From: Candidatus Scatomonas merdigallinarum
GTDB lineage: Bacteria; Bacillota; Clostridia; Lachnospirales; Lachnospiraceae
Reading direction: 5' to 3'
Length of the DNA: 64,000 nt
Assembly: GCA_018716305.1 (NCBI GenBank)
Contig: DVKB01000014.1
Location: 1-64,000 of the forward strand
Below the pieces are notes generated by a model. It searched no databases, was not told the origin of the DNA, and was given only the letters and a program-made list of their open reading frames with translations. This document shows, piece after piece, positions 1-59,928 of this stretch. Position 1 is the first letter of the stretch, and each line of letters begins with the position of its first letter. A program made the translations under genes and the position numbers.

Positions 1-21
1 CCTACCCAATATTCGCATATC

Positions 22-39
22 GTGGGATATGCATCCCAC
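22..39. repeat. Perfect 7-bp inverted repeat (GTGGGAT-ATGC-ATCCCAC)
   Basis: Read directly; stem 22-28/33-39 with 4-nt loop. Confidence 0.6.
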
Positions 40-59
40 TTTTATGCTCATATTAGGGC

Positions 60-120
60 GGGTCCCAAGGCCTTAACCCCACTTATGAGCAAGCTCATGT
101 GGGTTTAGGCCTTTTGACCC
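60..120. repeat. Long nested hairpin element (GGGTC..AAGGCC..ACCcCAC..ATGAGC-AA-GCTCAT..GTGGGT..GGCCTT..GACCC)
   Basis: Nearly the whole 61 nt is self-complementary with small symmetric interruptions; upstream of tag. Confidence 0.6.
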
Positions 121-173
121 TGGCATCATTATTTATCAGAGTTGTTTAATATTTACGAACGGGGTGAAAAAGA

Positions 174-3264: not shown

Positions 3265-5049
3265 ATGCGGTATTCAGAGGATATAATAGAAGAAGTCCGG
3301 GCCAAAACGGATATCGTGGAATTGATATCGGGTTATGTAAAACTGCAGAGAAGAGGCAGCTCCTATTTCGGGCTATGCCCCTTCCACAATGAGAAATCCC
3401 CGTCCTTCTCGGTGAGCCCCGGAAAACAGATGTATTACTGCTTCGGCTGCGGGGCAGGGGGCAACGTGTTTACCTTTCTGATGGAATATGAAAATTATTC
3501 CTTTCAGGAGGCTTTAAAACTGCTGGCTGACCGGGCGGGAGTAAAACTGCCGGAAGTTTCCTATTCCAGGGAGGCCAGAGAAGAAGCGGACCGAAAAGCT
3601 CTGCTGCTGGAGATCAACAAGGAGGCGGCCAAGTATTATTACTGCAAACTCAGATCCCCGGCGGGGGAAAAAGCCATGGAATACCTTAAAGGCCGGGGGT
3701 TAAGGGATGAGACCATACGAAAATTCGGGCTGGGCTATTCGGACCGGTATAACAGCGATCTCTACCGCTATCTGAAAAGCAGAAAGTATTCGGATGAGGT
3801 ATTGCGGGAGACCGGGCTGTTCAACGCGGATGAAAAAAAGGGGATGTACGATAAATTCTGGAACCGGGTTATCTACCCCATTATGGACGCCAACAGCCGC
3901 GTCATCGGTTTCGGAGGCCGCGTCATGGGAGACGGAAAGCCCAAATATCTGAATTCTCCGGAAACAAAGATTTTTGATAAGAGCCGGAATCTGTACGGCC
4001 TCCATGCCGCCCGCGGCTCCAGGCGGAAAAATCTCATCATCTGCGAGGGATACATGGACGTGATCTCCATGCATCAGGCGGGATTTACCAATGCCGTGGC
4101 TTCCCTGGGCACAGCCCTTACCTCCCAGCAGGCCAGCCTGCTGAAGCGGTATACCCAGGAAGTGCTGGTCATCTACGACAGCGATGAGGCGGGAATCAAG
4201 GCGGCTCTCAGGGCCATCCCCATGCTGCGGGGAGCGGGGCTTTCCCCCCGGGTGGTGAATTTAAATCCCCACAAGGATCCTGATGAGTTTATTCAGGCGG
4301 AAGGAAAGGAAGCTTTTGAGGAGCGGCTGGAGCAGGCGGAGAACGGTTTTCTGTACGAGATCCGTATGCTCCAGAGAAATTATGACATGAAAGATCCCCA
4401 GGGGAAATCGGATTTCTTTCACGAAGCCGCAGGGAAGCTGCTGAAGTTTGAAGATGAAATCGAGAGAAACAGCTATCTGGAAGCGGTGGCAAGAACCTAT
4501 CACACAGAACCGGAGAGCCTGAGAAAGCTGGTAAACCGTCTGGCCCTGGGAGGAACCGGGCAGGAAGCGCGGCGGCAGCAGGAAGCGCCTGACCGAAAGA
4601 AAAAAGAACGGGAGGACGGGGTTCAGAAAGCGCAGAAACTGATGCTCACCTGGATGACCAGCTATCCGGAAATTTTGAAAGGACTTTCGCGGTATATTAC
4701 CAGCCGGGATTTCGTGACGCCCTTCTACCGGCGGGTGGCGGAAATGGTGGAGGAACAGTACCGGGAAGGCCAGGTGAATCCGGCCCGGATTATCAGCCGA
4801 TTTGAGGCGGGAGAAGAGCAGAATCTGGCAGCCTCCCTGTTTCATACCAAGCTGTCCCTGGAAAGCGATATGGAGAAGCAGACCGCTCTGAAGGATGTGA
4901 TCTGCAATATGAAAGAGAGCAGCCTCAATTACAGGCTCTCTCATCTGAGTCCGGAAGATCTGGCCGGGCTTCAGAATCTGATGACAGAAAAGAAAAAGCT
5001 GGAAGAATTCAAGGCGGCGCCCCTGCCCGGGGATCTTTCCCCCGCATAA
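3265..5049 (+). CDS. dnaG: DNA primase
   Basis: Zinc finger CPFHNEKSPSFSVSPGKQMYYCFGCGAGG and Toprim EGYMDVISMHQAG; start at 3265 preferred to the ORF-track 3220. Confidence 0.96.
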   Translation: MRYSEDIIEEVRAKTDIVELISGYVKLQRRGSSYFGLCPFHNEKSPSFSVSPGKQMYYCFGCGAGGNVFTFLMEYENYSFQEALKLLADRAGVKLPEVSYSREAREEADRKALLLEINKEAAKYYYCKLRSPAGEKAMEYLKGRGLRDETIRKFGLGYSDRYNSDLYRYLKSRKYSDEVLRETGLFNADEKKGMYDKFWNRVIYPIMDANSRVIGFGGRVMGDGKPKYLNSPETKIFDKSRNLYGLHAARGSRRKNLIICEGYMDVISMHQAGFTNAVASLGTALTSQQASLLKRYTQEVLVIYDSDEAGIKAALRAIPMLRGAGLSPRVVNLNPHKDPDEFIQAEGKEAFEERLEQAENGFLYEIRMLQRNYDMKDPQGKSDFFHEAAGKLLKFEDEIERNSYLEAVARTYHTEPESLRKLVNRLALGGTGQEARRQQEAPDRKKKEREDGVQKAQKLMLTWMTSYPEILKGLSRYITSRDFVTPFYRRVAEMVEEQYREGQVNPARIISRFEAGEEQNLAASLFHTKLSLESDMEKQTALKDVICNMKESSLNYRLSHLSPEDLAGLQNLMTEKKKLEEFKAAPLPGDLSPA

Positions 5050-5110
5050 AGGTTTATACTGCGGCACCCAAGGACAAAATACACATAGACAATGAAAGGA
5101 TGGACATTCT

Positions 5111-6241
5111 ATGGAGATGGACAAAGAGAAGTTCATGGAAAAACTGAAAGGACTTCAGGAACTGGCGAAGAAAAAGAAAAACGTGCTGGAAAACCGGGAG
5201 GTCAAGGATTATTTCCATGATACGCCTCTGAACGACCAGCAGATGGAGAAGGTTTACCAGTACCTGGAAGCCCATGGGATCGACGTATTAAGAATTTCTG
5301 AAAATGACGCGGATGTGGATTCCCTTCTGCTTCTCAGCGATGATGACATCAATCTGGACGATGAAGAAGAAGTGGATATGGAGAATCTGGACCTGTCGGT
5401 GCCTGAGGGGATCAGCATCGAGGATCCGGTCCGCATGTATCTCAAGGAGATCGGAAAAGTGCCGCTTCTGTCCGCGGAGGAAGAGATCGACCTGGCCCAG
5501 CGGATGGAACAGGGAGACGAGAGCGCAAAAAAACGTCTGGCTGAGGCAAATCTGCGTCTGGTGGTCTCCATTGCCAAGCGCTATGTAGGCCGCGGCATGC
5601 TGTTCCTGGATCTGATCCAGGAGGGAAATCTGGGACTGATCAAGGCGGTGGAAAAATTTGATTACCGGAAAGGCTACAAATTTTCCACCTACGCTACCTG
5701 GTGGATCCGTCAGGCTATTACCAGAGCTATTGCCGATCAGGCCCGAACCATCCGCATTCCGGTGCATATGGTGGAAACCATCAACAAGCTGATCCGGGTT
5801 TCAAGGCAGCTGCTCCAGGAACTGGGCAGAGAGCCTACCCCGGAGGAAATCGCCGAGGAGATGCACATGTCGGTGGAGCGTGTCCGGGAGATCCTGAAAA
5901 TTTCCCAGGAACCTGTCTCGCTGGAGACCCCCATCGGTGAGGAGGAGGACAGTCATCTGGGAGATTTTATCCAGGACGACAATGTGCCGGTTCCGGCGGA
6001 CGCCGCGGCGTTTACCATGCTGAAAGAACAGCTGGAAGATGTATTAAGCACCCTGACAGACCGGGAACAGAAGGTTCTGCGGCTGCGCTTCGGCCTGGAC
6101 GACGGGCGTGCCAGAACCCTGGAGGAAGTGGGAAAAGAGTTTAACGTGACCAGAGAGCGGATCCGCCAGATTGAAGCTAAGGCTCTCCGGAAGCTGCGCC
6201 ATCCCAGCCGCAGCCGGAAATTAAAGGATTATCTGGACTGA
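5111..6241 (+). CDS. rpoD: RNA polymerase primary sigma factor
   Basis: Regions 2-4: [69 protein letters not shown]. Confidence 0.97.
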
Positions 6242-6246
6242 GGCCC

Positions 6247-6948
6247 GTGATGCAGCTGTCAGAGAGAATGGCCGCGGTGGCGGATATGGTAACGCCGGGC
6301 TGCCGCCTGGCGGATGTGGGCTGTGATCACGGATATCTGTCGGTGTGGCTGTGCGGCAAAAAGATTGCCCGCAGAGCTGTGGCATTGGACGTCAGCCGGG
6401 GGCCTCTGCGGTCGGCGGCCAGAAGCGTTGCCGCTGCCGGGCTGGAGGCGTACATAGAGACCAGGCTGTCCGACGGACTGGCGGCGGTAGCTCCGGGGGA
6501 GGTGGATTCCGTGGTGATCGCCGGCATGGGGGGAAGGCTGATGTGCCGGATCCTTAAGGAGGGGAAATCGGTGCTTGCCGGTATCCGGGAGCTGGTGCTG
6601 GAGCCGCAGTCCGAAGCATCGGAGGTGCGAAAGTTTCTGCAGCAGGAGCAGTTTCAGATCGACAGGGAGGACATGGTTCGGGAAGCGGGAAAATTTTATC
6701 CGGTGATCCGGGCGGTCCCCGGGGCTGTCACAGGGAAAATGACGGAAGAGGAGCTGCGGTTCGGTCCGCTGCTTCTGCGGGACAGACATCCGGTTCTGCG
6801 GCAGCTGCTGGACAAGGAGGAGCGTACCTATATAAAAATCCGGGAGTCCCTGGAGGGACAGCAGGGAGAAAAGGCATCGGCCAGACTCCTGGAGATTCAG
6901 AAGGAGCTGCGGTATATCCGCAGAGCGGTGGCATATTATGAAGAGTGA
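6247..6948 (+). CDS. trmK: tRNA (adenine(22)-N(1))-methyltransferase, TrmK family
   Basis: ADVGCDHGYLSVWL, VIAGMGGRLMCRIL, LVLEPQSE motifs. Confidence 0.9.
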   Translation: MMQLSERMAAVADMVTPGCRLADVGCDHGYLSVWLCGKKIARRAVALDVSRGPLRSAARSVAAAGLEAYIETRLSDGLAAVAPGEVDSVVIAGMGGRLMCRILKEGKSVLAGIRELVLEPQSEASEVRKFLQQEQFQIDREDMVREAGKFYPVIRAVPGAVTGKMTEEELRFGPLLLRDRHPVLRQLLDKEERTYIKIRESLEGQQGEKASARLLEIQKELRYIRRAVAYYEE

Positions 6949-9441: not shown

Positions 9442-9790
9442 GTGCGAGCAGGGTATGTGGCCGCGGCTGGCAGGACCGAAAGGGGCCAGGCGAGGAAAGT
9501 CCGGGCTTCACAGGGCAGGATGCCGGATAACGTCCGGCGGAGGCGACTCCAGGGACAGTGCAACAGAAATAAACCGCCTGCGTCCGCAGGTAAGGGTGGA
9601 AAGGCAGTGTAAGAGACTACCGCCGCCCTGGCAACAGGACGGGCACATGTAAACCCCATCCGAAGCAAGACCAGACAGAAGACGGTGCGGCGGCCCGCCG
9701 CGTCTTCAGGTAGGTCGCTGGAGGCTGCCGGCGACGGCAGTCCTAGATAGATGGCCACACACGACATAACCCGGCTTACCGCCCTGCTCG
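9442..9790 (+). ncRNA. rnpB: RNase P RNA, bacterial class A
   Basis: CGAGGAAAGTCCGGGC, GACAGTGCAACAGAAA, GTAAACCCCATCCGAAGCAAGACCAG; ends CGAGCAGGG/CCCTGCTCG pair followed by TTTTTT. Confidence 0.95.
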
Positions 9791-9838
9791 TTTTTTAGAT
9801 TCCAAAAGCAGACAGCCTGCGGACAGGAGAAAGAAAAG

Positions 9839-43363: not shown

Positions 43364-44947
43364 ATGTATAAAGTACTGATTGCGGATGACGAGATAAAAG
43401 TCTGCCAGTTGATAGAAAGTCTTGTAGACTGGGAAAAAATGGATCTTCAGCTGGTTTCCATGGTTCACAACGGACTGGAGGCGGTAAAGGCTGTGGAGGA
43501 ATCAGCCCCGGATATCGTAATCGCGGACATACGCATGCCGGAATTGGACGGGCTTTCTCTGCTGCGCAGAATCAAGGAAGCAAAAAGAGACATCAATTTT
43601 CTCATTGTCAGCGGGTACAGAAATTTTGAATACGTCAGGGATGCTCTGCAAAATGAAGCGGAAGATTATCTTCTGAAGCCGATCCGCAGGGCAGAGTTAA
43701 ATGAGGCTCTAAAAAAAATTATTGAAAAGAGAAACAGGAAGCAGGAAATCTCCCGTAATGTAAGCAGTCTCCGCCAGGGCGGGTTTGTCCGGGAACTGCT
43801 GGAACATCAGACAGAAGAGGATTATCCGGTTTCCTATGAAAAAGTCAACGAAGAATTTCATTGTACCTTCAGCGGTGGAACTGTAACAGCCTTCGCTGTC
43901 AAGATGGACATATGGACCAGTCAGAATCTGACGGAAAATCTTTCTGTACTGGGGAAAAGAGCGATGCAGATAATCCGCAGGGAAATGGAAAAAAACGGAT
44001 TTTGGCCTTATATGGCTGTAAAAAAGGATCTGATACTCTGTATTGTAGAGGGAGCGGATATACAGTCGGAAAATTTTAAAAACGGACTTCGGCATATTAT
44101 CCGGAATATTCATGCCGTCAGTGATCAGACCATGAAGGTTCGCGCGGCAATAGGGGCGGGCGGCTCAGGACAGTTCCGTGATCTGTACCGTCTGTCTTTC
44201 CAGGCTCAGAAACTGGTATGGGATCGTCTGTGGATGGAAAGGGCGGACATTATTTTTGCCGGTGGGGACGAGAGAGACGGTTCTGTACATGAGTTTTTTT
44301 CATATGGGATGCAGAGAGATTTTAAAAATGCGGCGGAGTGTCTGAATCAAGAGCAAGTTCTCGCTGTCATGGAACGGGTTGCAGAAAAATATAAAGGAAA
44401 GCAGCTGTCTGGGCAGGGATGGAAACTGTATGAAGCCTATGAAAAAATGTTTTCCATGGTTGGGGATATGATCCGGAAAATAGATCCGTCCGCGGAACTG
44501 GCGGATGACTATAGAACGGCTTCTATCCGGCTCCGTATGTGCGGCAGCCTGACGGAAATGCATCGGTTTGCGAAAGAAACCGTAGAGCATCTGTTTGGTG
44601 AGATCAGAAAAAACAGGGAACTCCTGAACCGGAAACCTGTCCGGGACGCGAAACAGTATATCCTGCAGCACTTCGCGGAGGAATTGACCCTGGAAGAGGT
44701 AAGCAGCAGGGCGGGACTGAATCCGGCCTACTTTTCTACTGTCTTTAAAGGAGAGACAGGGCAGACATTTACAGAGTATCTCGCGGATATACGAATAGAA
44801 AAAGCTAAAGAACTGCTGCTTCAGAATGAATTTTCTGTCTCGGAGGTGGCCTGGCGCGTGGGATACAGAGATGAAAAATATTTTATGCGGGTGTTTAAGA
44901 AAAAAGTAGGTCTTACTGCCGCCAAATACAGAAAACTTTACGGGTGA
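43364..44947 (+). CDS. Response regulator with AraC-type DNA-binding domain (YesN-like)
   Basis: VLIADDEIKVCQLIESLVDWEKMD..DIVIADIRMPELDGLSLL; C-terminal AraC HTH. Confidence 0.94.
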   Translation: MYKVLIADDEIKVCQLIESLVDWEKMDLQLVSMVHNGLEAVKAVEESAPDIVIADIRMPELDGLSLLRRIKEAKRDINFLIVSGYRNFEYVRDALQNEAEDYLLKPIRRAELNEALKKIIEKRNRKQEISRNVSSLRQGGFVRELLEHQTEEDYPVSYEKVNEEFHCTFSGGTVTAFAVKMDIWTSQNLTENLSVLGKRAMQIIRREMEKNGFWPYMAVKKDLILCIVEGADIQSENFKNGLRHIIRNIHAVSDQTMKVRAAIGAGGSGQFRDLYRLSFQAQKLVWDRLWMERADIIFAGGDERDGSVHEFFSYGMQRDFKNAAECLNQEQVLAVMERVAEKYKGKQLSGQGWKLYEAYEKMFSMVGDMIRKIDPSAELADDYRTASIRLRMCGSLTEMHRFAKETVEHLFGEIRKNRELLNRKPVRDAKQYILQHFAEELTLEEVSSRAGLNPAYFSTVFKGETGQTFTEYLADIRIEKAKELLLQNEFSVSEVAWRVGYRDEKYFMRVFKKKVGLTAAKYRKLYG

Positions 44948-44958
44948 GGGAAGGTATT

Positions 44959-45984
44959 ATGAAAACGTTAAGGGGTCGTTTGAAAGTATTCGCGGCGGGC
45001 CTGCTCCTTCTGTGGATATTGGACGGGGTTCTTGCTCTGCTGGTTCTGCCCCATACTGCTTTTGCGGAGGGTACAGCTTTTTTTATATTCCATTTTGGAG
45101 CGGCTGCGCTTTTGTCAGTTGTTTTCTGGAGATGGGTCTGCTGTCCATTTAGAAAAACAGAAAAGGCTATGGACGATTTTGGAAAAGGATATGTAGATCA
45201 GAGTGTACTCCAAAGTCAGCTTCCGGTATCAGAAGGGTATCTGGAAATGATCCGGCAGTTTGACTCTGTTGTAGACAGAAAAAAACTTTTGGAGCTGTCC
45301 GTGGAACAATCCAGGCTGATTGCCCTGCAAAATCAGATGAATCCTCATTTCCTTTATAATACCCTGGATGCGATCCGGGGAGATGCCTTGAGGGCGGGCA
45401 TGACAGAGCTGGCGCAGACCATGGAATCCTTATCCCTGTTTTTAAGCTATTCGATTTCTGAATTGGACAAATACGCCACCATTGGGGAGGAAATCTGTAA
45501 TGTCAGGGATTATTTTCAGGTTCAGCAGTATCGTTTCGGGCAAAAGCTGAAACTGCATGTGGATTTATCTGACGCGGACCCGGAAGTAAATGATTATTAT
45601 ATTACCCGAATGACGCTGCAGCCCCTGGTGGAAAACGCCATCTGCCATGGATTAGAGAGAAAAGCGTCTATGGGAACCGTTACGGTAAAAGTTATTCAGA
45701 CAGAAAAGAAAGTCCTTCTGCTGGTGTCAGACGACGGCGTGGGCATGACGCAGGCAGAAACAGACCGGCTGAACCGGCTGCTGCACAGTCCGGGCGTTTT
45801 AATGGCCGGGCAGAAAAGGAAGGGCGGCATAGCTCTGAATAATGTGAATGCGCGCATGAAACTGTTGTTCGGAGATGAATATGGATTGACAGTTTTCGCG
45901 CAGCAGGGCATCGGATGTACCGTTCAGGTGAAATGTCCTGTTCTGACGAGGAATATCTATGAAAAAAGAACTTCTGAGCATTGA
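44959..45984 (+). CDS. Sensor histidine kinase (YesM/LytS-like) with two TMs and a very short loop
   Basis: ALQNQMNPHFLYNTLDAIRG, LQPLVENAICHGLE, VSDDGVGM. Confidence 0.92.
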   Translation: MKTLRGRLKVFAAGLLLLWILDGVLALLVLPHTAFAEGTAFFIFHFGAAALLSVVFWRWVCCPFRKTEKAMDDFGKGYVDQSVLQSQLPVSEGYLEMIRQFDSVVDRKKLLELSVEQSRLIALQNQMNPHFLYNTLDAIRGDALRAGMTELAQTMESLSLFLSYSISELDKYATIGEEICNVRDYFQVQQYRFGQKLKLHVDLSDADPEVNDYYITRMTLQPLVENAICHGLERKASMGTVTVKVIQTEKKVLLLVSDDGVGMTQAETDRLNRLLHSPGVLMAGQKRKGGIALNNVNARMKLLFGDEYGLTVFAQQGIGCTVQVKCPVLTRNIYEKRTSEH

Positions 45985-47377
45985 AAATGGAATATGCTTC
46001 AGCGGAGGGCAGAAATCTATGTATTCCATTTTTCTCCGGGTTTTTGCCGGGGATATTATGGGGATTCTGTCAGATAACCATCCGGATCTTGAGAACATGC
46101 TGGGCATTGTCAGCGGACGTAAAAAAATAGATTATGGAAGAGTGTATCTCAAAGAAACGCTACTTCGGGAGCCGGAAAATCTGCCGGTTCTGAAAGAGCA
46201 GGTTACTGTGGTCAGTTCAAAGGCAGCTTTGATTCCCAATCTCACCATTGCGCAGAATATGTTCGCCATTCAGCGGAAAACAAATATTTTTTTCAGGAAA
46301 AAAGAAAGTGAATTTAAACTGAGAAAATATATGGATTTGTTCGGAATACGTCTGTCCGTTGACACGCCGGTAAAAAAACTGGATATTGTACAGAGAATTG
46401 AATTAGAAATATTGAAGGCCTGGCTTCTGAAGCATCCAATCATTCTTCTGGATCTTCGCAGTATTTATCTTTCAGAGGAAGAACTTCAAGCGCTGAAACG
46501 ATACCTTTGCCGTTACAGAAATCATGAATGTGCTGTTTTAATTTTTGATCAGAACATAAACCGGCTGTTTTTCCTTACAGACAAAATTTCTGTCCTGTCA
46601 GGCGGAAAAACCATAGGCAACTTTCTGTGTGAAGAACAAATAAGACAGAAACTTTTGAAGCTGTATTTGAGCCCGAAGGCAAAAGAAACATCTGCGGCTG
46701 CCGAAAAATCCGGGAAAAAGATCTTTTCCCTGGAGCATGTTAATCTCCCGGGGCTTCCGGAACTGAATTTTTCTGTGCGGGCAGGGGAGACAGTGCTCCT
46801 TCAGATTCCCGACTGGAGAGCGTCCGAAAAACTGATTGCCCTTTTTAAAGGGGAAATACAACAGAAAAGCGGAGAGATATGGATCGGAAAAAACAAGTAT
46901 CAGGCAAAAGGAGCGGCAAACGGACCGAAACAGTCGCTGGTGGTGATGGAGCCCCCATATCTTGGATCCCTATTTTATAATCTGAATGTATATGATAACT
47001 TCTGCATCGCGAGAGGGTGTATTCGAAAAGGACTCTGGTCAGATAAAAAATGCCGTCAAAGTGTTCGGGAATACATCCGGAAAATATTCGGCCGTGATAT
47101 TTCAGAGCGGAAGCTATCTGAATTAAGCCCTGGGGAGACTCAAAAGCTGGTATGGTTCCGATGGATTTTTTACGCGCCGGCAGTTCTGGTCTGCGCGGAT
47201 CCTTTTGACAGCGCGGATATGAGTCTCCGCAGTGACGTGGAAGAATATCTTTCCCTGCTGGCCGGACGGGGAACCGCGCTGGTGCTTATTGCCAGAAGCG
47301 ACCGGACCTATTCCGGAATTCGCGGCCGGTGCATCCGAATTACAGATATATTCCAGGCGCAGTCAAAGGGGCTGTGA
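45959..47377 (+). CDS. Tandem ABC-domain protein of RbsA-like architecture with degenerate catalytic motifs (predicted pseudo-ATPase)
   Basis: RbsA-like landmarks (LTIAQNMFAIQRK, ITVL/ISVLSGGKTIG) but Walker A, signature and Walker B degenerate in both halves; overlaps the kinase gene by 26 bp. Confidence 0.75.
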   Translation: MKKELLSIENGICFSGGQKSMYSIFLRVFAGDIMGILSDNHPDLENMLGIVSGRKKIDYGRVYLKETLLREPENLPVLKEQVTVVSSKAALIPNLTIAQNMFAIQRKTNIFFRKKESEFKLRKYMDLFGIRLSVDTPVKKLDIVQRIELEILKAWLLKHPIILLDLRSIYLSEEELQALKRYLCRYRNHECAVLIFDQNINRLFFLTDKISVLSGGKTIGNFLCEEQIRQKLLKLYLSPKAKETSAAAEKSGKKIFSLEHVNLPGLPELNFSVRAGETVLLQIPDWRASEKLIALFKGEIQQKSGEIWIGKNKYQAKGAANGPKQSLVVMEPPYLGSLFYNLNVYDNFCIARGCIRKGLWSDKKCRQSVREYIRKIFGRDISERKLSELSPGETQKLVWFRWIFYAPAVLVCADPFDSADMSLRSDVEEYLSLLAGRGTALVLIARSDRTYSGIRGRCIRITDIFQAQSKGL

Positions 47378-47396
47378 AAAAACATAGCTCAAAACA

Positions 47397-47439
47397 AAGA
47401 AGGACCAAGGGTGAAAAATAAGCCCAAGGTCCTTCTTTT
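47397..47439 (+). terminator. Terminator after the two-component/pseudo-ABC operon
   Basis: AAGAAGGACC-AA-GGG...CCC-AA-GGTCCTTCTT-TT. Confidence 0.75.
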
Positions 47440-47513: not shown

Positions 47514-47571
47514 GTAAGCAGTGAATCGGACCGATCATCGTGACATCACAGAGAGGAGGTGCAGTAGGAGC

Positions 47572-49059
47572 GTGTATCAGGGAGAGTATATTCTTGAGAT
47601 GCGGAATATTGTAAAAGTTTTTCCGGGGGTGCGGGCTCTGGACGGTATGAGCATAAAAATACGTCCCGGGACAGTGCATGCTATTGCCGGAGAAAACGGC
47701 GCGGGAAAATCTACGCTGATGAAAGTCATTAACGGGGATTATGCTCCGGAAGAGGGGGAAGTAGTCTACAAAGGAAAAACTTTAGGGAAGCGGACGATTA
47801 TGGAAACAATTCAGATGGGGATTTCCATGATCCGCCAGGAAATGAACCCCATCCGTCAGATGACCATCGCGGAAAATATTTTTCTGGGCCGGGAACCGCA
47901 GAAAAGAAAAGGCTTTGTAGATTTTAAAAAGCTCAACGAAAATACCAACGAATTGCTGAAAGAACTGAATATGCCCTTTGAAGCGTCTCAGAAAATGGAT
48001 ACGCTCAGTATAGCGGCGCAGCAGCAGGTGGAGATCGCCAAGGCGATCAGCTGCAATGCTTCTGTAATCATCATGGATGAACCCACATCGGCTATTTCCG
48101 ATCATGAAATAGAAATATTATTTGAGCAGATTCGAAATCTGAAAAGGAAGGGAGTCGCGATTATTTATATTACCCATAAAATGGATGAAATTATGGAAAT
48201 CGCGGACGAAGTAACCATCATCCGAGACGGCGCGTGGATCAGTTCCGGCCCCATCGGCGATTATACCAGCGATAAAATTATATCTCTGATGGTGGGAAGA
48301 AAAATTTCCAATATTTTTCCGAAGGAGAAGGCGCCTATTGGGGACACCGTATTGGAAATCAGAGAACTTTGCAGCAGAGGTGTATTCAGGAATATAAGCT
48401 TCTCCGTAAAAGAGGGAGAAATCCTCGGATTTGCCGGACTGGTGGGCGCAGGACGCTCAGAGGTGATGAGGGCGGTCTTTGGGCTGGATGAATATCAGTC
48501 GGGAGAGATCTTCGTAAATGGGAAAAAAGCAGAGATTCACAGGACAGAAGATGCTATTGCCGCCGGAATCGCCATGGTGTCAGAAGATCGAAGAGCGGAG
48601 GGAATCATCCCTGTTCGTTCCGCGAGAGAAAATATTACGCTGCCGTTTATAAAAAAATTCAGGAAGCATGGTCTTATCAGCAAAAAAGCGGAAAGCAGAA
48701 CGGCGGAAAAAATGATTGAAAAATTCCAGATCAAGGTTTCCACCCCGGAACAGGAGATACGGAATCTGTCCGGGGGAAATCAGCAGAAGGTAATTCTCGC
48801 GAAATGGCTGCTGGGAAACCCCAAAGTACTGATTTTGGATGAACCTACCAGGGGGATTGACGTGGGATCCAAGTCAGAAATACACCGGCTGATGTGCGAG
48901 TACGCGAAACAGGGTCTGGCAATTATCATGATCTCCTCGGAACTGCCGGAAGTGCTGGGGATGAGCGACCGGATTATAGTCATGCGGGAAGGGCGCATAT
49001 CCGGAGAGCTCATCCGTGAGGAAGCAGATCAGGAAGCGATTATGCGTCTGGCTACATGA
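47572..49059 (+). CDS. Sugar ABC transporter ATP-binding protein (RbsA/MglA-like)
   Basis: Intact GENGAGKSTLMKV, VEIAKAISCNASVIIMDEPTSA, LSGGNQQKVILAKWL, LILDEPTRGIDVGSK; GTG start at 47572 behind GAGGAGG/AGGAG. Confidence 0.93.
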   Translation: MYQGEYILEMRNIVKVFPGVRALDGMSIKIRPGTVHAIAGENGAGKSTLMKVINGDYAPEEGEVVYKGKTLGKRTIMETIQMGISMIRQEMNPIRQMTIAENIFLGREPQKRKGFVDFKKLNENTNELLKELNMPFEASQKMDTLSIAAQQQVEIAKAISCNASVIIMDEPTSAISDHEIEILFEQIRNLKRKGVAIIYITHKMDEIMEIADEVTIIRDGAWISSGPIGDYTSDKIISLMVGRKISNIFPKEKAPIGDTVLEIRELCSRGVFRNISFSVKEGEILGFAGLVGAGRSEVMRAVFGLDEYQSGEIFVNGKKAEIHRTEDAIAAGIAMVSEDRRAEGIIPVRSARENITLPFIKKFRKHGLISKKAESRTAEKMIEKFQIKVSTPEQEIRNLSGGNQQKVILAKWLLGNPKVLILDEPTRGIDVGSKSEIHRLMCEYAKQGLAIIMISSELPEVLGMSDRIIVMREGRISGELIREEADQEAIMRLAT

Positions 49060-49082
49060 GAAGGAAGAGAGGTAAACAGCTT

Positions 49083-50087
49083 ATGAAAAAGGAGAGAAAA
49101 AAATTCAGCTTCGCGGAGTTTTATAATAAATTCGGAGTGGTAACAATTCTGGTGATTGTTTTTATAGTAGCCTCGGTGCTGTCGCCCAATTTTCTGAAGC
49201 TGACAAACCTTACCAATGTTCTGCGGCAGATTGTGGTGGTAACCGTCATCGGCTGCGGCGCTACCTTTGTACTGATCACTGCCCAGATCAATATTGCCTA
49301 TGATTCCCTGATTGCCTGTATCGGATGCACTGCCTGCATCGCCATGGTGGGAACAAAAAATCTTTTGGCGGCGGTAATCGCGGGGGTTGCCCTGGGCGCT
49401 TTGATCGGATATTTTTACGGATTCTGCGTGACGAAATTTTCTATGCCCGGATTTATCGTCGGCCTGGCCATTGACACCATTGCCTCCGGCGCGATCCTGC
49501 TGGCTACCAATGGAAATCCGGTTTCTCAGCTGGGAGCCTTTACCGTGATCGGACAGGGACATATTTTCGGAGTGATTCCGATTTCCGTTGTAATTATGTT
49601 TGCTGTATTGATTCTGAGCTATATTATCCTGAATAAAACCTGTTTTGGCCGGAAAGTCTACGCGGTGGGAGGCAACCGCACTGCCGCCATCGCCTCCGGC
49701 ATCGACGCGGACAAGGTGATTCGCACCGTGTATGTATACGATGGAATTATGACAGCTATCGCGGCTATCATCTTCATGTCCCGGCTCTCCTCCGGACAGC
49801 CTTCGGCAGGGGTCGGTTATGCTTTTGACGCGATTACCGCTGTGGTAGTAGGCGGTGTATCCATCTACGGCGGAACCGGAAATGTCATGGGAACTATAGT
49901 AGGAGCGGCCATCGTAGGAATCTTAAATAATCTGATGAATCTGAAAAATGTCACCAGCTACTGGCAGGATATTATTTCCGGCATAGTCATCCTGCTGGCG
50001 GTCCTGATGGATGTGATGACAAAACGCGCGTCAGCCAACGCCATCAAAAAGGCAATGGCTGACAGAACGGAGAAAGCATCGGCGTAA
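49083..50087 (+). CDS. Sugar ABC transporter permease (RbsC-like)
   Basis: NLTNVLRQIVVVTVIGCGATFVLITAQINIAYDSL..YAVGGNRTAAIASGIDADKV. Confidence 0.92.
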   Translation: MKKERKKFSFAEFYNKFGVVTILVIVFIVASVLSPNFLKLTNLTNVLRQIVVVTVIGCGATFVLITAQINIAYDSLIACIGCTACIAMVGTKNLLAAVIAGVALGALIGYFYGFCVTKFSMPGFIVGLAIDTIASGAILLATNGNPVSQLGAFTVIGQGHIFGVIPISVVIMFAVLILSYIILNKTCFGRKVYAVGGNRTAAIASGIDADKVIRTVYVYDGIMTAIAAIIFMSRLSSGQPSAGVGYAFDAITAVVVGGVSIYGGTGNVMGTIVGAAIVGILNNLMNLKNVTSYWQDIISGIVILLAVLMDVMTKRASANAIKKAMADRTEKASA

Positions 50088-50146: not shown

Positions 50147-51151
50147 ATGAAGTACAGACGAAAAATGATTGCATGGTTACTGGCAGGCACTATGACGGTT
50201 TTGCTGGCGGGCTGCGGAGAAAGCGGCGGGGAAAACAGTGACAGCGCCGCGGGGGGAAGCAGCGCGGCCGGGGAAAGCGCGGAATCCGCGGAAACCTGGA
50301 CGATTGGATTTGCCAACCGTCTGGCCTCCGATACATTCCTGAAGCTTTTGCAGGATAAATTTGTCGGACTCTGTGAAGAAGATGGCAGCTTTGAAGTAGT
50401 GCTTGCCGACGCCAATAACGACAGTCAGGCGCAGATCGATCAGGTGGCAAATTTTATGGTGCAGGAGGTGGACGCCCTGGTACTGTGCCCCAATGACGGG
50501 GAATCTCTTGTACCCCAGATTGAAGAGGCAAACAAAGCGGGAATTCCGGTGTTTTGTTTCTCCCAGGCGGCAAACGGAGGAGATTTTGTGATGGTGGGCA
50601 TCTCCAATTATGACTGCGGCCTGCAGCAGGGAGAATGGTGTTATGAAAATCTGCCGGAGAATGCCAAAATCCTGTACCTGGGCGGCAACAGCGGATTCCA
50701 GTCTTCTATTGACAGAAAAGAAGGATTTCTGGACGGTCTGGGGGACCGGCTTTCCGATAATGGCGGAGATTTAGAGATTTTATCTTATCAGGAATGTATG
50801 TACACCATGAACGAAGGCATGACGATTACCGAGGACTGGATCCAGACCTTTGAAACCTTTGACGCCATTGTGGCGGTCAATGACCTGTCTGCGCTGGGGG
50901 CGGTACAGGCCCTGAAAGCAGCCAATAAGCTGGATGAGGCAGCCGTGATCGGAATCGATGGGATCGATGACGCTATGAAAGCTGTGGCAGACGGCGAAAT
51001 GGAGATGACGGTATATCAGGATCCGAATCTGCAGGCGGAAGCTCTTTACAACGCGCTGGCAGAAACAAGAGACGGAAACATGCCCACAGAAGATATCAAT
51101 GTGGAGGTAATCACAGTCACGGCAGAAAATGTTGCTGACTATACTTCATAA
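50147..51151 (+). CDS. Sugar ABC transporter substrate-binding lipoprotein
   Basis: Lipobox LLAGCG; periplasmic-binding fold motifs TIGFANRLASDTFLK, VVLADANNDSQAQIDQVANF. Confidence 0.93.
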   Translation: MKYRRKMIAWLLAGTMTVLLAGCGESGGENSDSAAGGSSAAGESAESAETWTIGFANRLASDTFLKLLQDKFVGLCEEDGSFEVVLADANNDSQAQIDQVANFMVQEVDALVLCPNDGESLVPQIEEANKAGIPVFCFSQAANGGDFVMVGISNYDCGLQQGEWCYENLPENAKILYLGGNSGFQSSIDRKEGFLDGLGDRLSDNGGDLEILSYQECMYTMNEGMTITEDWIQTFETFDAIVAVNDLSALGAVQALKAANKLDEAAVIGIDGIDDAMKAVADGEMEMTVYQDPNLQAEALYNALAETRDGNMPTEDINVEVITVTAENVADYTS

Positions 51152-54591: not shown

Positions 54592-57500
54592 ATGAAAAAA
54601 CGAATCCTGGCAGGTCTTTTAAGCGCGGCTATGGTCGTGACACTGCTCCCTGTGAGCGCCGTCATAGCCGCGCCGGAAGACAGCAATGATTCACAGAGTC
54701 AGGTTTCTGTCCTTGCGGACGCGGAAAATCCCGGTGTCAACATTGCCACCAGGGCTACGGCGGATGCTTCCTATACCAATGTATGGAGCATCACTCCCGC
54801 GTCCATGAACGATGGAGAGCTGGCTACCTCGGATCCCTACACCAGCTGGAACAGCTGGGGAACCAATGACGAGGCGTACCCGGTGACGACATCCCTGACC
54901 TGGGACGCGCCCCAGGTAATCTCCGGCATGCGGGTGATGTGGTGGGCGGACAACGCGGAACTTACGTCCAACGCTAATGTAACATTCCCCAAAAGCTGCG
55001 AGGTTTATTATGTGGACGCGGAGGGAAATGAGCAGAAAATCACCGGCATGACCAATGAAAGCGGTCAGGCCACCGATCAGGTGGGAGTTGTGTACGATTC
55101 CAGCTCCAACAACGGAATCAACGGCAACAACCACTACTGGAACTATGTGCAGTTTGCGGAACCTATTACCACCTCCGAACTGCGGCTGAAGATCCAGCGC
55201 AGCGGCTCCGGCACCAACGGAGTGGGAATCAGCGAGTGGGAAGTCTTCGGATATACCCCCGTTGCCACCGGAGAGAATGTGGCTTCCAATGCAGAGGTCA
55301 TTCCCTCTTATACGAACACCTGGCTGGACGCGGATGAGGCAGCGGCAGCGGTAACAGATGGTGTGCTGGCAACAGATTCCACCACCACCTGGAACAGCTA
55401 CGGTGCTTCCGATGAGGACTACCCGGTGACCGTAGAACTGAACTGGGGAGACGCGGAGTACGAAGTCTCCAGCCTGCGGGTAATGTGGTGGAGAGACTAC
55501 GGCGGCGTAATGCCTCCCTCGGACTGCAGCCTGCAGTACTACAACAGCCGCTCCAGAGAGTGGACAGACATCACCGACCTGATCGATGAGACGGGAGAGG
55601 ATGTTTCTTCCGTAGGCGTGAAGTTTGGAACTGAAACCACTGCGGCGGAAAGCAGCGATGATTATCAGGAAGGAGCCAACCGCTACTGGAACGGCGTCTC
55701 CCTGAAAGAGCCGGTAACCACCAGCCGTCTCCGTCTGGTGATCAACCGCAGCGGAGAAGGCGAAACAGGCGTGGGTATCGGCGAGCTGGAAGTGTACGGC
55801 AAGGAAGTAGAGGCAACCCTGGGAGGAAATGTGGCTCCCGAGGCCACCGCTTCCGCTGACGCCCAGAACACACCGGTGACCAACGTAAACGACGGCGCCC
55901 TGGCAACCTGGGCTTCCTCTTCCTGGAACACCTGGAACAGCAGCACCTATCCCACTACAGTCACCCTGACCTGGGACGCTCCCTATGAGCTGAACGGCAT
56001 GCGCGTTATGTACTGGGCGGACAACGGTGATCTGTATGCTAACGGCAACGTAACCTTCCCAAAGAGCTGCAACGTAGAGTACTACGATTACGAGACAGCC
56101 TCCTGGCAGCCCATCACCGCCATGACGGATGAGACAGGAGCTGACGTTGAATCTGTGGGAGTAAAATACGGCACCGCCGAGGCGGCTTCCGACCAGCCGG
56201 GGAACTTCCTGAACGGGGACAACCGCTACTGGAACCAGGTAACCTTTAAGGAGCCGGTGAGAACCACACAGCTTCGTCTGCTGATTGACCGCAACGGTTC
56301 CGGCGCCAACGGCGTGGGTATCGGCGAGTGGGAAGTCTTCGGCGAGGAGATGACTGCCGAGTGGAACCAGCTGGTTTCCGCTAAGATCACCGGAAAAGAG
56401 AGAATTCTCAAAGGTGAGAGCGGAGTCTTCACGGCGGAAAGCCTTCCCGTGGGACTGGACGGACTGTCCTATCAGTGGGAACTGACAGAGGGCAGCGAGT
56501 TTATGGAGATCGATGGCGCGGCTAATGAAGCGCAGGTAACCATCAATGCAAAGGACAGCGGCTACGGAACCCTGAAGCTGACGGTTTCCCGTCAGGAGGA
56601 CGGCGCCACCGTATCCCGGACCGCCAGCCTGCAGATCAAGGTGGACGGCATCGAAAGCATTGACACTTATAAGGCAGCTACAGCGGCGGGAACCGCTCCG
56701 ATCCTGCCCAAGACGGTAGTTGCCAACGGAATCGCCTTTGACGATCCCACGCCGGAGCTGATTGGGCCTACCGGTTACGATTTCGGAGAAGAGTTTAACT
56801 CCAAACTGGTTCCCGTGGAATGGGAAGAGGTTGATCCCGCCCTGTACGCGGAGGATCAGGTTGGAAAGACCTTTGAGGTAAAAGGAACCGTAACCTCCGG
56901 AGACGAGACCTTTGAGGCGGTGGCAGAAGTCACAGTCAACGAGCCGGTTGTGGCGGCGGCAGCCAACACCACGGTTACCTTTGAGAATGTGCAGCTGACC
57001 GACAATTTCTGGAACCCCAAACAGAAGGTAAATGCGGTAAATTCTCTGAATAAAGCCATCTATCAGATCGAGCAGGCTTCCGGCGGCGAGCCCAACTTTG
57101 TGAACGCCATCAAGAAGCTGAACGGCGAGCCCTACGATGAGTTCCAGGGATATGTATTCCAGGATTCCGATATCTACAAGAGCATCGAGGCCATTTCCTA
57201 CACCCTGTCTGTCATCAACGATGACACAGATCCGGAGATGGTAGCTCAGAAAGCGGTACTGGAAGAAAAACTGGCCTACTGGATCTCTCTCATTGAGCAG
57301 GTACAGTACGCGGACGGCTACATTGACACCCACTTTACCCTGAGAAGCACCGCCCACGCCGGCGGAAGCTCACCGGGAACACATCGGTGGAGAGATTTCT
57401 CCAACCATGAGATGTACAACGCCGGCCATTTCTTTGAGGCGGTGGTGGCTTACACCCGCTACAGAGAAGGCATCGGCGATCCGGACTACAGCCTGTATGT

Positions 57501-59928
57501 AGTCGGAAAACGGTTCGCGGACGAGATCGTAACCCTCTTCGGACCGGACGGAAGCCGTCACGAGGTTCCCGGCCATGAAGAGATCGAGCTGGGTCTTGTG
57601 AAGCTGGCGAAGCTGGTGGAAGAGTACGAGGGCGAGGGAACCGGACAGAAGTATCTGGATACCGCCAAGACCCTGATTGACCGCAGAGGTGTGGAAAAAG
57701 ACCAGAGAGAAAGCGGATACAACGGAGGAGAATATTCTCAGGACAATGCCTCCATTAAGGAAATCACGGAAGCGGTAGGACATGCCGTGCGCGCCTGCTA
57801 TTTCTACGCTGGTGTAACGGACATCGCCACCCTGCTGCCGGAAGACGATCCGGATCGGGCTGCGTACCTGAACACCATGGACGCCATCTGGGATTCTGTG
57901 GCCAATACCAAGACCTATATTACCGGCGGTATCGGCGTGCGTTCCCACGGTGAGGACTTCGGCGATCCCTACGAGCTGCCCAACGATGACTCTTACTGCG
58001 AGATCTGCGCCACCATCGCTCTTGCCAACTGGAATCAGAGAATGAACCTGATCCATGAGGACGCCAAGTACGCGGATGTGGTGGAGAAGAACCTGTATAA
58101 CGCCATCCTGGTGGGAACCAACCTGACTGGCGATAAGTTCTACTACAGCACATACCTGGAAGCCAGAAACGGAGATCCCCGTTCTGACTGGTTCGCCTGC
58201 GCCTGCTGTCCGCCCAACCTGATGCGCACCATTGCCAAACTCAGCGAGTATATGTACACGGTACACGGAGACGACCTGTTCGTGAACATGTATGTCGGCA
58301 GCGACGGCAATGTGAATGTGGACGGTACAAATGTCGGACTGACCCAGGAGACAGAATATCCCTGGGATGGAGCGGTGAAGCTGACTGTCAATCCGGCGGA
58401 GGAGAAGGAATTCACCATGAAGATCCGTATCCCCGGATGGATCCAGGAGCAGAACAACAAAGAAGTTTCTATTTATGTAAATGGCGAGGCGGTGACCGCT
58501 GAGGCGGAAAAAGGTTACGTTTCCATCACCCGTACCTGGAAAGAAGGGGATGTGGTGAGAATCGATATGCCCATGGAAATCAGAATGACCGAGGCAGATC
58601 CCAACGTGACCACCAACGCCGGAAGAATTGCCCTGCAGCGCGGCCCCATTGTTTACAGCATTGAGATGGCAGGAAACGCTCAGCTGAACTCTGATATCGC
58701 AAACTTCAGCCCCCTGAATTTTGTAATTCCCAGAGACGCCCAGCTGACCGCAACCTACAACGAAGACCTTCTGAACGGCGTGGTGGAGATCACCGGCGAT
58801 GTCAAATATGACAACAACGGAGAGCTCATCGACGCGAAGCTGCAGGCGATTCCGTACTATGCATGGAACAACCGCGGCAACGACGGCGTAGAAGGCCAGA
58901 ACAACTGCAGCCAGATGCTGATCTGGACCAAGGCCACCGGTGAAACTCCGGAAGCCACGGCGCCCACCCTTGACCGGATTGAGATTTCCGGACCTGCCAA
59001 GACAGAGTATGTCCAGGGTGAAGAGCTGGATCTCGCGGGACTGTCCGTCATAGCGGTATACAGCGACGGCAGCAGCAAACCGGTTGCGGCAGAAGACTGC
59101 GAAGTGACCGGCTATGACGCCAATACCCTGGGTGAGCAGACCATTACGGTGACCTACGAAGGAAAGACAGCGGCCTTTACCGTAAATGTAAGGGAAGAAG
59201 GTCAGCCTGTGCCTACCCTGGAGAAGATCGAAGTGACAGCGCCTGCCAAGACAGAGTATGTCCAGGGCGAAGCACTGGATCTTGCGGGAATGACCGTGAC
59301 AGCTGTGTACAGCGACGGAAACAGAAAGGAGATCACGGAGGGATACCAGGTAACCGGCTATGACGCCAACGCGGTTGGTGAGCAGACCATTACGGTGACC
59401 TACGAAGGAATGGAAGCATCCTTTACTGTAACTGTGAAGGAAGCGGAAACTCCCGCCCCCACTCTGGAGAAGATCGAAGTGACAGCGCCTGCCAAGACAG
59501 AGTATGTCCAGGGCGAAGAGCTGGATCTCGCGGGAATGACCGTGACAGCTGTGTACAGCGATGGCAGCACCAAGGAGATCGCGGAAGGATACACCGTCGG
59601 CGGCTATGACGCCAATGTGGCCGGTCCCCAGACAGTGACCGTTACATACGGCGGAAAGACCGCCTCCTTTACTGTGACAGTGACGGAGAAGGGTGAACCT
59701 TCTGATCCCGATCAGCCTACAACGACTCCGACCCAGGAGCCTACGGACACCCAGAAACCCTCTGATACCCAGAAGCCTTCTGTCACCCAGAAGCCCGGCA
59801 CCACCGGACGGCCCGGAACTTCAGCGGCTACGGGAGATCAGACCAATCTGTTCCTGCCTTCAGTTTCCATTCTGCTGGCAGCGGCAGTGCTGTTTGCAGT
59901 TCTGAAAATCAGAAAAACAGAGAGATAA
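54592..59928 (+). CDS. Cell-surface GH127-like beta-L-arabinofuranosidase with three N-terminal F5/8C-like modules, Ig-like modules and C-terminal anchor
   Basis: Signal peptide; VTFENVQLTDNFWNPK; YCEICA and CACCPPNLMRTIAKLSEY Zn-thiolate motifs; C-terminal SAATGD-hydrophobic-RKTER. Confidence 0.87.
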   Translation: MKKRILAGLLSAAMVVTLLPVSAVIAAPEDSNDSQSQVSVLADAENPGVNIATRATADASYTNVWSITPASMNDGELATSDPYTSWNSWGTNDEAYPVTTSLTWDAPQVISGMRVMWWADNAELTSNANVTFPKSCEVYYVDAEGNEQKITGMTNESGQATDQVGVVYDSSSNNGINGNNHYWNYVQFAEPITTSELRLKIQRSGSGTNGVGISEWEVFGYTPVATGENVASNAEVIPSYTNTWLDADEAAAAVTDGVLATDSTTTWNSYGASDEDYPVTVELNWGDAEYEVSSLRVMWWRDYGGVMPPSDCSLQYYNSRSREWTDITDLIDETGEDVSSVGVKFGTETTAAESSDDYQEGANRYWNGVSLKEPVTTSRLRLVINRSGEGETGVGIGELEVYGKEVEATLGGNVAPEATASADAQNTPVTNVNDGALATWASSSWNTWNSSTYPTTVTLTWDAPYELNGMRVMYWADNGDLYANGNVTFPKSCNVEYYDYETASWQPITAMTDETGADVESVGVKYGTAEAASDQPGNFLNGDNRYWNQVTFKEPVRTTQLRLLIDRNGSGANGVGIGEWEVFGEEMTAEWNQLVSAKITGKERILKGESGVFTAESLPVGLDGLSYQWELTEGSEFMEIDGAANEAQVTINAKDSGYGTLKLTVSRQEDGATVSRTASLQIKVDGIESIDTYKAATAAGTAPILPKTVVANGIAFDDPTPELIGPTGYDFGEEFNSKLVPVEWEEVDPALYAEDQVGKTFEVKGTVTSGDETFEAVAEVTVNEPVVAAAANTTVTFENVQLTDNFWNPKQKVNAVNSLNKAIYQIEQASGGEPNFVNAIKKLNGEPYDEFQGYVFQDSDIYKSIEAISYTLSVINDDTDPEMVAQKAVLEEKLAYWISLIEQVQYADGYIDTHFTLRSTAHAGGSSPGTHRWRDFSNHEMYNAGHFFEAVVAYTRYREGIGDPDYSLYVVGKRFADEIVTLFGPDGSRHEVPGHEEIELGLVKLAKLVEEYEGEGTGQKYLDTAKTLIDRRGVEKDQRESGYNGGEYSQDNASIKEITEAVGHAVRACYFYAGVTDIATLLPEDDPDRAAYLNTMDAIWDSVANTKTYITGGIGVRSHGEDFGDPYELPNDDSYCEICATIALANWNQRMNLIHEDAKYADVVEKNLYNAILVGTNLTGDKFYYSTYLEARNGDPRSDWFACACCPPNLMRTIAKLSEYMYTVHGDDLFVNMYVGSDGNVNVDGTNVGLTQETEYPWDGAVKLTVNPAEEKEFTMKIRIPGWIQEQNNKEVSIYVNGEAVTAEAEKGYVSITRTWKEGDVVRIDMPMEIRMTEADPNVTTNAGRIALQRGPIVYSIEMAGNAQLNSDIANFSPLNFVIPRDAQLTATYNEDLLNGVVEITGDVKYDNNGELIDAKLQAIPYYAWNNRGNDGVEGQNNCSQMLIWTKATGETPEATAPTLDRIEISGPAKTEYVQGEELDLAGLSVIAVYSDGSSKPVAAEDCEVTGYDANTLGEQTITVTYEGKTAAFTVNVREEGQPVPTLEKIEVTAPAKTEYVQGEALDLAGMTVTAVYSDGNRKEITEGYQVTGYDANAVGEQTITVTYEGMEASFTVTVKEAETPAPTLEKIEVTAPAKTEYVQGEELDLAGMTVTAVYSDGSTKEIAEGYTVGGYDANVAGPQTVTVTYGGKTASFTVTVTEKGEPSDPDQPTTTPTQEPTDTQKPSDTQKPSVTQKPGTTGRPGTSAATGDQTNLFLPSVSILLAAAVLFAVLKIRKTER
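54739..56350 (+). repeat. Three diverged F5/8 type C-like modules (approx. 54739-55255, 55271-55805, 55825-56350)
   Basis: Repeated GENVAS/GGNVAP...TWNS.....YPVTV.L.WD....SGMRVMWW........TSELRL.I.R.GSG..GVGI.EWEVFG. Confidence 0.75.
58969..59700 (+). repeat. Three tandem bacterial Ig-like (Big) modules, ~246-249-bp period
   Basis: Units start near 58969, 59218 and 59464; units 2 and 3 share >50 identical nt. Confidence 0.85.

Follow-up and report, generated by a model that had tools for sequence, protein, structure and literature searches.

The gene under study lies in a 64,000-nt stretch of DNA (the window), where seven consecutive features on the forward strand form a regulatory operon followed by a transporter operon:

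43364–44947, forward strand: response regulator with a receiver domain and an AraC-type HTH (YesN-like), 527 aa (Pfam Response_reg, 1.7e-24; HTH_18, 2e-21)
44944–45984, forward strand: histidine kinase (His_kinase/HATPase_c, YesM/LytS type), 346 aa, with a membrane hairpin and without a sensor domain (Pfam PF06580, 4e-20; N-terminal hydropathy; family topology)
45959–47377, forward strand: putative pseudo-ABC protein, 472 aa, with tandem RbsA-like ABC domains and both ATPase sites lost (Pfam, NCBIfam, motif alignment, family conservation, AlphaFold2 model)
47396–47438, forward strand: terminator-like hairpin with a T-rich tail, separating the kinase operon from the transporter operon (−23 kcal/mol, z −5.3; sequence)
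47521–49059, forward strand: tandem ABC ATPase of the RbsA type with intact motifs, part of the adjacent importer (NCBIfam xylose/arabinose/ribose ATPases, E ≤1e-170)
49056–50087, forward strand: RbsC-type permease (BPD_transp_2; Pfam, 1.2e-33)
50147–51151, forward strand: sugar-binding protein of the importer (Peripla_BP_4; Pfam, 1.6e-50)

The pseudo-ABC gene begins with ATG and its frame is uninterrupted; its first 26 nt lie within the kinase gene, in agreement with the overlap described in the initial annotation. Since the strong hairpin at 47396–47438 separates it from the transporter genes, the gene was assigned to the kinase operon only, and the hairpin, the kinase overlap and the spacers present in relatives all indicated that it does not share an operon with the permease. 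The regulatory pair corresponds to the YesMN type (a PF06580 kinase and a receiver-AraC regulator), and the permease is of the BPD_transp_2 and not of the BceB type. The start of the intact RbsA is uncertain: the ORF begins with GTG at 47521, and the GTG at 47572, after AGAGGAGG, matches the lengths of the homologs better. Downstream of the importer, positions 54592–59928 encode a protein of 1778 aa that combines GH127 beta-L-arabinofuranosidase domains with Ig-like repeats, and esterase-like and amidohydrolase genes are found in between; the region from the importer to the GH127 gene is probably an arabinoside-use locus. Elsewhere in the window we observed a class A RNase P RNA (9445–9794, forward strand) and a Clostridiales-1 RNA truncated by the window edge (1–128, reverse strand).

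Pfam detected two ABC_tran stretches in the 472-aa protein (5.9e-13 for the whole protein), which also aligned over its full length with the AraG/YtfR/RbsA models of NCBIfam (best E-value 6.5e-33). The RbsA-like layout of two fused ABC domains in approximately 500 aa is therefore present. However, the best NCBIfam model gave 113.8 bits against a cut-off of 689, so the curated family cut-off was missed, and identity to the neighboring intact RbsA was 20% over 470 columns (2e-19). In the motif alignment, the P-loop positions read SDNHPDLENM (site 1) and IPDWRASEKL (site 2), with neither the lysine nor the glycines of the P-loop; the signature positions read LDIVQRIELEILKA and LSPGETQKLVWFR, and the Walker B positions ILLDLRS and VCADPFDSAD, with the aspartate of the first Walker B retained. 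Thus, every replacement that had been quoted in the initial annotation for the Walker A loops, the signatures and the Walker B motifs was found, and the functional site (Walker A/B and signature) of which the RbsA type has at least one was not. Judged by these motifs, the protein is without a recognizable ATP site. Given that one ATP site is already degenerate in ordinary RbsA (PMC11466899), the novelty of this protein is the loss of both.

A scan of genome contigs with this single protein as the query found no relative, and profiles were needed. In 200 genomes of the same bacterial family, 18 homologs with 22–30% identity showed the same motif losses. Profile A1 separated members (at least about 345 bits) from ordinary RbsA proteins (at most 302 bits) in the family, class and phylum sets, although the threshold is not absolute and more divergent members fall below it (e.g., L104, at 293). 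By this threshold, the 396 genomes of the bacterial family contributed 40 loci (found in 36 of them), and there were 10 further loci in the class sample and three in the phylum sample; L090, L105 and most of the other matches between 260 and 302 bits were discarded as ordinary RbsA proteins. A second profile retrieved 141 relatives from named genomes, among them those of Tepidanaerobacter, Caloramator, Ruminiclostridium, Clostridium symbiosum, Enterocloster and Blautia schinkii. The family, of about 150 relatives, is spread over the Clostridia and neighboring classes. In 142 of its 150 full-length module proteins no P-loop is in place, while a P-loop is present in all 66 ordinary RbsA proteins used as a control; the other eight module proteins retain a P-loop in place. 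Two proteins with a P-loop pattern at the wrong place (L071, L182) were not counted among these eight. In many relatives, a partial GK persists where the first P-loop would be, and the family has conserved residues of its own, such as QPFxxAD at the former second Walker B and LxVxDNxFV.

At the E-value used, the search of the genomes of its genus found no close ortholog of the window protein (G201 contains a more distant family member), and for this reason selection was estimated from relatives. The dN/dS values of the nine measurable close pairs, 0.044–0.187, showed no relaxation and mostly lay among the values obtained for the kinase and regulator genes. Reading frame, length and gene order are also maintained from class to class. 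As far as sequences can tell, the family is kept by purifying selection and decay is excluded for it, which upholds the earlier argument that such a long open frame is not a decaying one.

The genomic neighborhood links these proteins to the kinase. A PF06580-type kinase gene lies directly upstream of the pseudo-ABC gene in 146 of 151 loci, with a gap of at most 25 nt in 136 of the 146 and an overlap in 82, and the AraC-type response regulator gene precedes the kinase gene as the first of the triad in 143 of the 151. Of the 113 loci with long flanks, 106 have RbsABC-type transporter genes beside the module, variously upstream, downstream or divergent, and the other seven show no transporter gene within the stretch seen. 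Where RbsA is directly downstream (71 loci), the spacer measures 5–316 nt and is terminator-like in 31. The variable position of the transporter genes, together with these spacers and terminators, and the tight gap to the kinase indicate that the pseudo-ABC gene travels with the kinase gene. In the reverse direction, a kinase-only profile (A2) gave 44 matches in 200 genomes, and a tandem ABC gene was directly downstream of 41 of them (one cut by the contig end). Among the remaining three, one kinase is fused to a pseudo-ABC half (L153), another has a half upstream of the regulator (L154), and the last has none (L135), so 43 of the 44 have such a partner. As all kinases used to build A2 came with the partner, this result shows a link within the subfamily and does not extend to every sensor-less kinase. 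Two further candidates (L240, L241) were kinases of the ordinary kind, and no ABC partner was present in the stretch seen. Pseudo-ABC distances correlate with those of the kinase (r 0.86) and of RbsA (r 0.88) more closely than kinase and RbsA distances do with each other (0.80, decreasing to 0.17 given the pseudo-ABC distances). This pattern is in line with a protein that works with both, but it may mean no more than that pseudo-ABC distances are the least noisy measure of a shared history.

The kinases of these modules have little that could serve as a sensor. Exactly two hydrophobic segments, separated by a median of 10 residues, were found in 136 of 143 kinases, and a median of 131 residues precedes the phosphorylation box, which leaves no room for a sensor; one kinase at a contig end with a foreign-looking N-terminus (L244) was left out of this count. 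The large extracytoplasmic sensor domain usual for the YesMN type is missing, as is any ectodomain able to touch a binding protein, and the sensor-less kinase with two membrane helices is a trait shared with the Bce type. Other PF06580 kinases, among those listed from 60 genomes, have mostly 450–670 aa. Two module kinases, L243 (260 aa) and L245 (257 aa), have no membrane helix, and consequently their input must be cytoplasmic. Additionally, a natural fusion was found in G178, where a 616-aa ORF (L153, complement 4418–6268) joins the kinase to the first pseudo-ABC half. A sister species (G967; L266, 4975–6813) carries a fusion 87% identical to it over its length, while the corresponding place in a congener (G968) is occupied by two separate genes. 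A 922-aa ORF (L229) was rejected as a kinase fusion because its N-terminal part is out of frame and a separate kinase is encoded at 3991–5004. The linkage in both directions, the low dN/dS, the sensor-less and membrane-free kinases and the fusion strongly support the view that the pseudo-ABC protein belongs to the two-component system as a dedicated third component; direct binding between it and the kinase is very likely.

The AlphaFold2 model of the window protein obtained with 86 rows (pLDDT 88.9, pTM 0.75), which replaced one of 21 rows (pTM 0.54), showed a tandem ABC fold. In this model, a helix begins right after the strand at residues 38–41, leaving no phosphate loop. The best full-length matches by TM-score were the tandem ATPase subunits of DppABCD and OppABCD; against DppD, the score was 0.73 for the substrate-bound, nucleotide-free state and 0.58 for the ATP-bound state, with 0.70 for an ATP-bound mutant complex. 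The predicted structure thus resembles importer-bound tandem ATPases in their nucleotide-free state. From RbsA to pseudo-ABC proteins, conservation of the two P-loops drops from 0.79 to 0.40 and from 0.72 to 0.38, whereas that of the Q-loop/SDR segments hardly changes, from 0.55 to 0.51 (difference from the ATP motifs, p 1e-6). The Q-loop/SDR segments meet the permease in ABC importers, and no part of the protein is better conserved in the family than this putative permease-docking segment.

In a tree built from 71 module ABC proteins and 66 RbsA proteins, a single branch separated the two sets (SH-aLRT 97). Among the proteins nearest to the RbsA side is L106 (6572–8023), which occupies the slot after the kinase, has both P-loops intact and carries Q in place of the catalytic E of the second Walker B; it is possible that this represents the ancestral form. 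L149 is also nearest to this side; its first P-loop is retained, and the kinase of its locus still possesses a region large enough for a sensor. Beyond them, forms with one P-loop (L142, L146, L148, L152) are followed by P-loop-free forms. From this order, in which the branching near L106 and L149 may be distorted or exaggerated by long branches, the ATPase sites look as if they were lost stepwise in a way that can be followed in living species. Such intermediates, with two, one or no ATP sites, make it possible to dissect the change of function.

The reading that best explains these observations, to which we give a probability of about 0.6, is that the pseudo-ABC protein is a retired transporter ATPase acting as the input subunit of a three-component signaling system. 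According to this proposal, an RbsA-derived ATPase duplicate would have been stripped of its ATP sites and kept as the partner of a sensor-less kinase. The protein would bind the kinase, and its preserved docking surfaces would place it on an RbsC-type permease, either instead of RbsA or on a sub-population of the permease. Once the permease is engaged by a sugar-loaded binding protein, the stroke that otherwise drives the ATPase halves would pass to the kinase; the kinase would phosphorylate the AraC-type regulator, and the phosphorylated regulator could then switch on the neighboring RbsABC importer and the glycan-degradation genes. RbsA works as one tandem protein on a pair of RbsC subunits, RbsAC2B (PMC11466899), and a tandem pseudo-ABC protein could fill that place. 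Docking on the RbsC permease is likely in view of the RbsABC genes beside most loci, the conserved docking segment and the fold similar to importer-bound ATPases, and on the same grounds we favor the idea that the protein reports the state of the permease. At the window locus, the nearby GH127 beta-L-arabinofuranosidase suggests an arabinose-type sugar as the most likely signal. The adaptor role proposed in the initial annotation therefore stands with respect to the association with the kinase and the missing ATPase motifs, while the reporting of transporter state is an interpretation that the fusions complicate: as they retain one pseudo-ABC half, a tandem subunit on a permease dimer is not universal, and the one-for-one replacement of RbsA would not be the whole story. 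The seven long-flank loci with no transporter gene in the stretch seen and one orphan pseudo-ABC gene (L172) also count against this interpretation.

The most serious alternative is that the kinase partner senses a cytoplasmic cue (a sugar, a sugar phosphate, a nucleotide in the remodeled ATP site, or RbsA itself) and does not touch the permease. The membrane-free kinases and the one-half fusion, which work without an obvious tandem-on-permease arrangement, fit this possibility, as do the partial GK of many relatives and the whole P-loop of eight of them. We nevertheless consider it unlikely, since RbsABC genes adjoin nearly all long-flank loci and the most conserved region is the docking segment and not the old pocket. 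The protein could also be an inactive subunit that replaces RbsA to idle the importer, that is, a regulator of transport and not a signaling protein. The full-length homology to RbsA, the preserved docking segment and the model are in favor of such a subunit; however, its gene is grouped with that of the kinase instead of the transporter genes, stays by the kinase wherever the transporter genes are, and is fused to it in two species, which makes this explanation improbable. Even less probable is an ATP-gated switch, in which nucleotide would still be bound, and perhaps slowly hydrolyzed, through unusual residues: the early-branching L106, L142, L146, L148, L149 and L152 with one or two P-loops and the GK remnants are in its favor, but the window protein has no P-loop lysine or glycines and no phosphate loop in its model. 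Finally, a decaying pseudogene of an RbsA duplicate would account for the lost catalytic motifs and is very hard to reconcile with uninterrupted frames, a gene order that stays the same across families and classes, dN/dS values of 0.04–0.19 and the family's own conserved residues; it is contradicted for the family and would require a relaxation specific to the window protein.

Several elements of this proposal have precedents, given that three-component sugar systems based on binding proteins, transporter-sensing Bce modules and transporter-derived receptors are already known. With the RbsA/AraG/MglA-type tandem ATPases the protein shares the two fused ABC domains, full-length homology, the fold and the permease-docking segment; in contrast, it lacks the P-loops, Walker B and signatures, is encoded with a kinase and scores far under every curated cut-off. 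The BceAB-S complex is an example of an ABC transporter whose state is read by a kinase without a sensor, and the BceRS-BceAB peptide modules likewise combine a kinase without a sensor domain and an ABC system that provides its input (PMC10314905). However, the Bce sensor is a working transporter, whereas here a dead ATPase paralogue would be the dedicated third gene, in the context of a sugar-type importer and an AraC-type regulator. CuaDSR (PMC10384115) and XylFII-LytS-YesN also join a kinase and a regulator for a sugar ABC importer to a third, transporter-derived part, but theirs is an extracellular binding protein on a large kinase ectodomain, while the part described here is predicted to be a cytoplasmic pseudo-ATPase associated with a kinase that has no ectodomain. 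In UhpC-UhpB, DctA-DcuS (PMC5703999) and the S-component-like 5TMR kinases (PMC11109136), a transport protein or a relative of one also feeds a kinase; those are membrane carriers or S-components, and none is an NBD subunit. Our search of the open literature, with subscription papers and preprints outside its scope, found no description of an ATPase-dead NBD or pseudo-ABC protein as a kinase partner. The modules of many gut and anaerobic Firmicutes thus suggest a hitherto undescribed way in which bacteria sense sugar uptake. We propose only tentatively, at somewhat less than even odds, that an ATPase-dead importer subunit, a permease and a sensor-less kinase form a new class of receptor in which the former ATP-burning stroke drives phosphorylation. 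If the signaling proposal holds, an ABC nucleotide-binding subunit can be converted into a signaling protein, the source of input would be explained for a large group of kinases that lack a sensor in gut and anaerobic Firmicutes, and the open question of how a kinase learns the state of an importer could easily be tested. A further prediction is that, in these bacteria, many apparent sugar-transport ATPases do not energize transport.

Some loci depart from the common arrangement. In Ruminiclostridium cellobioparum and a relative (L196–L198), the gene after the pseudo-ABC gene has a sequence resembling that of a methyl-accepting chemotaxis protein, and the regulator and the kinase come next. 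The module's cluster of L053 has a permease gene but no full RbsA, and in L086 and L147 an extra RbsC gene lies right after the pseudo-ABC gene; the permease in these three loci is possibly reserved for signaling. An orphan pseudo-ABC gene (L172, 5001–6455), with no kinase nearby, is located between genes that, from reading their sequences, we named ileS and an M42-type peptidase.
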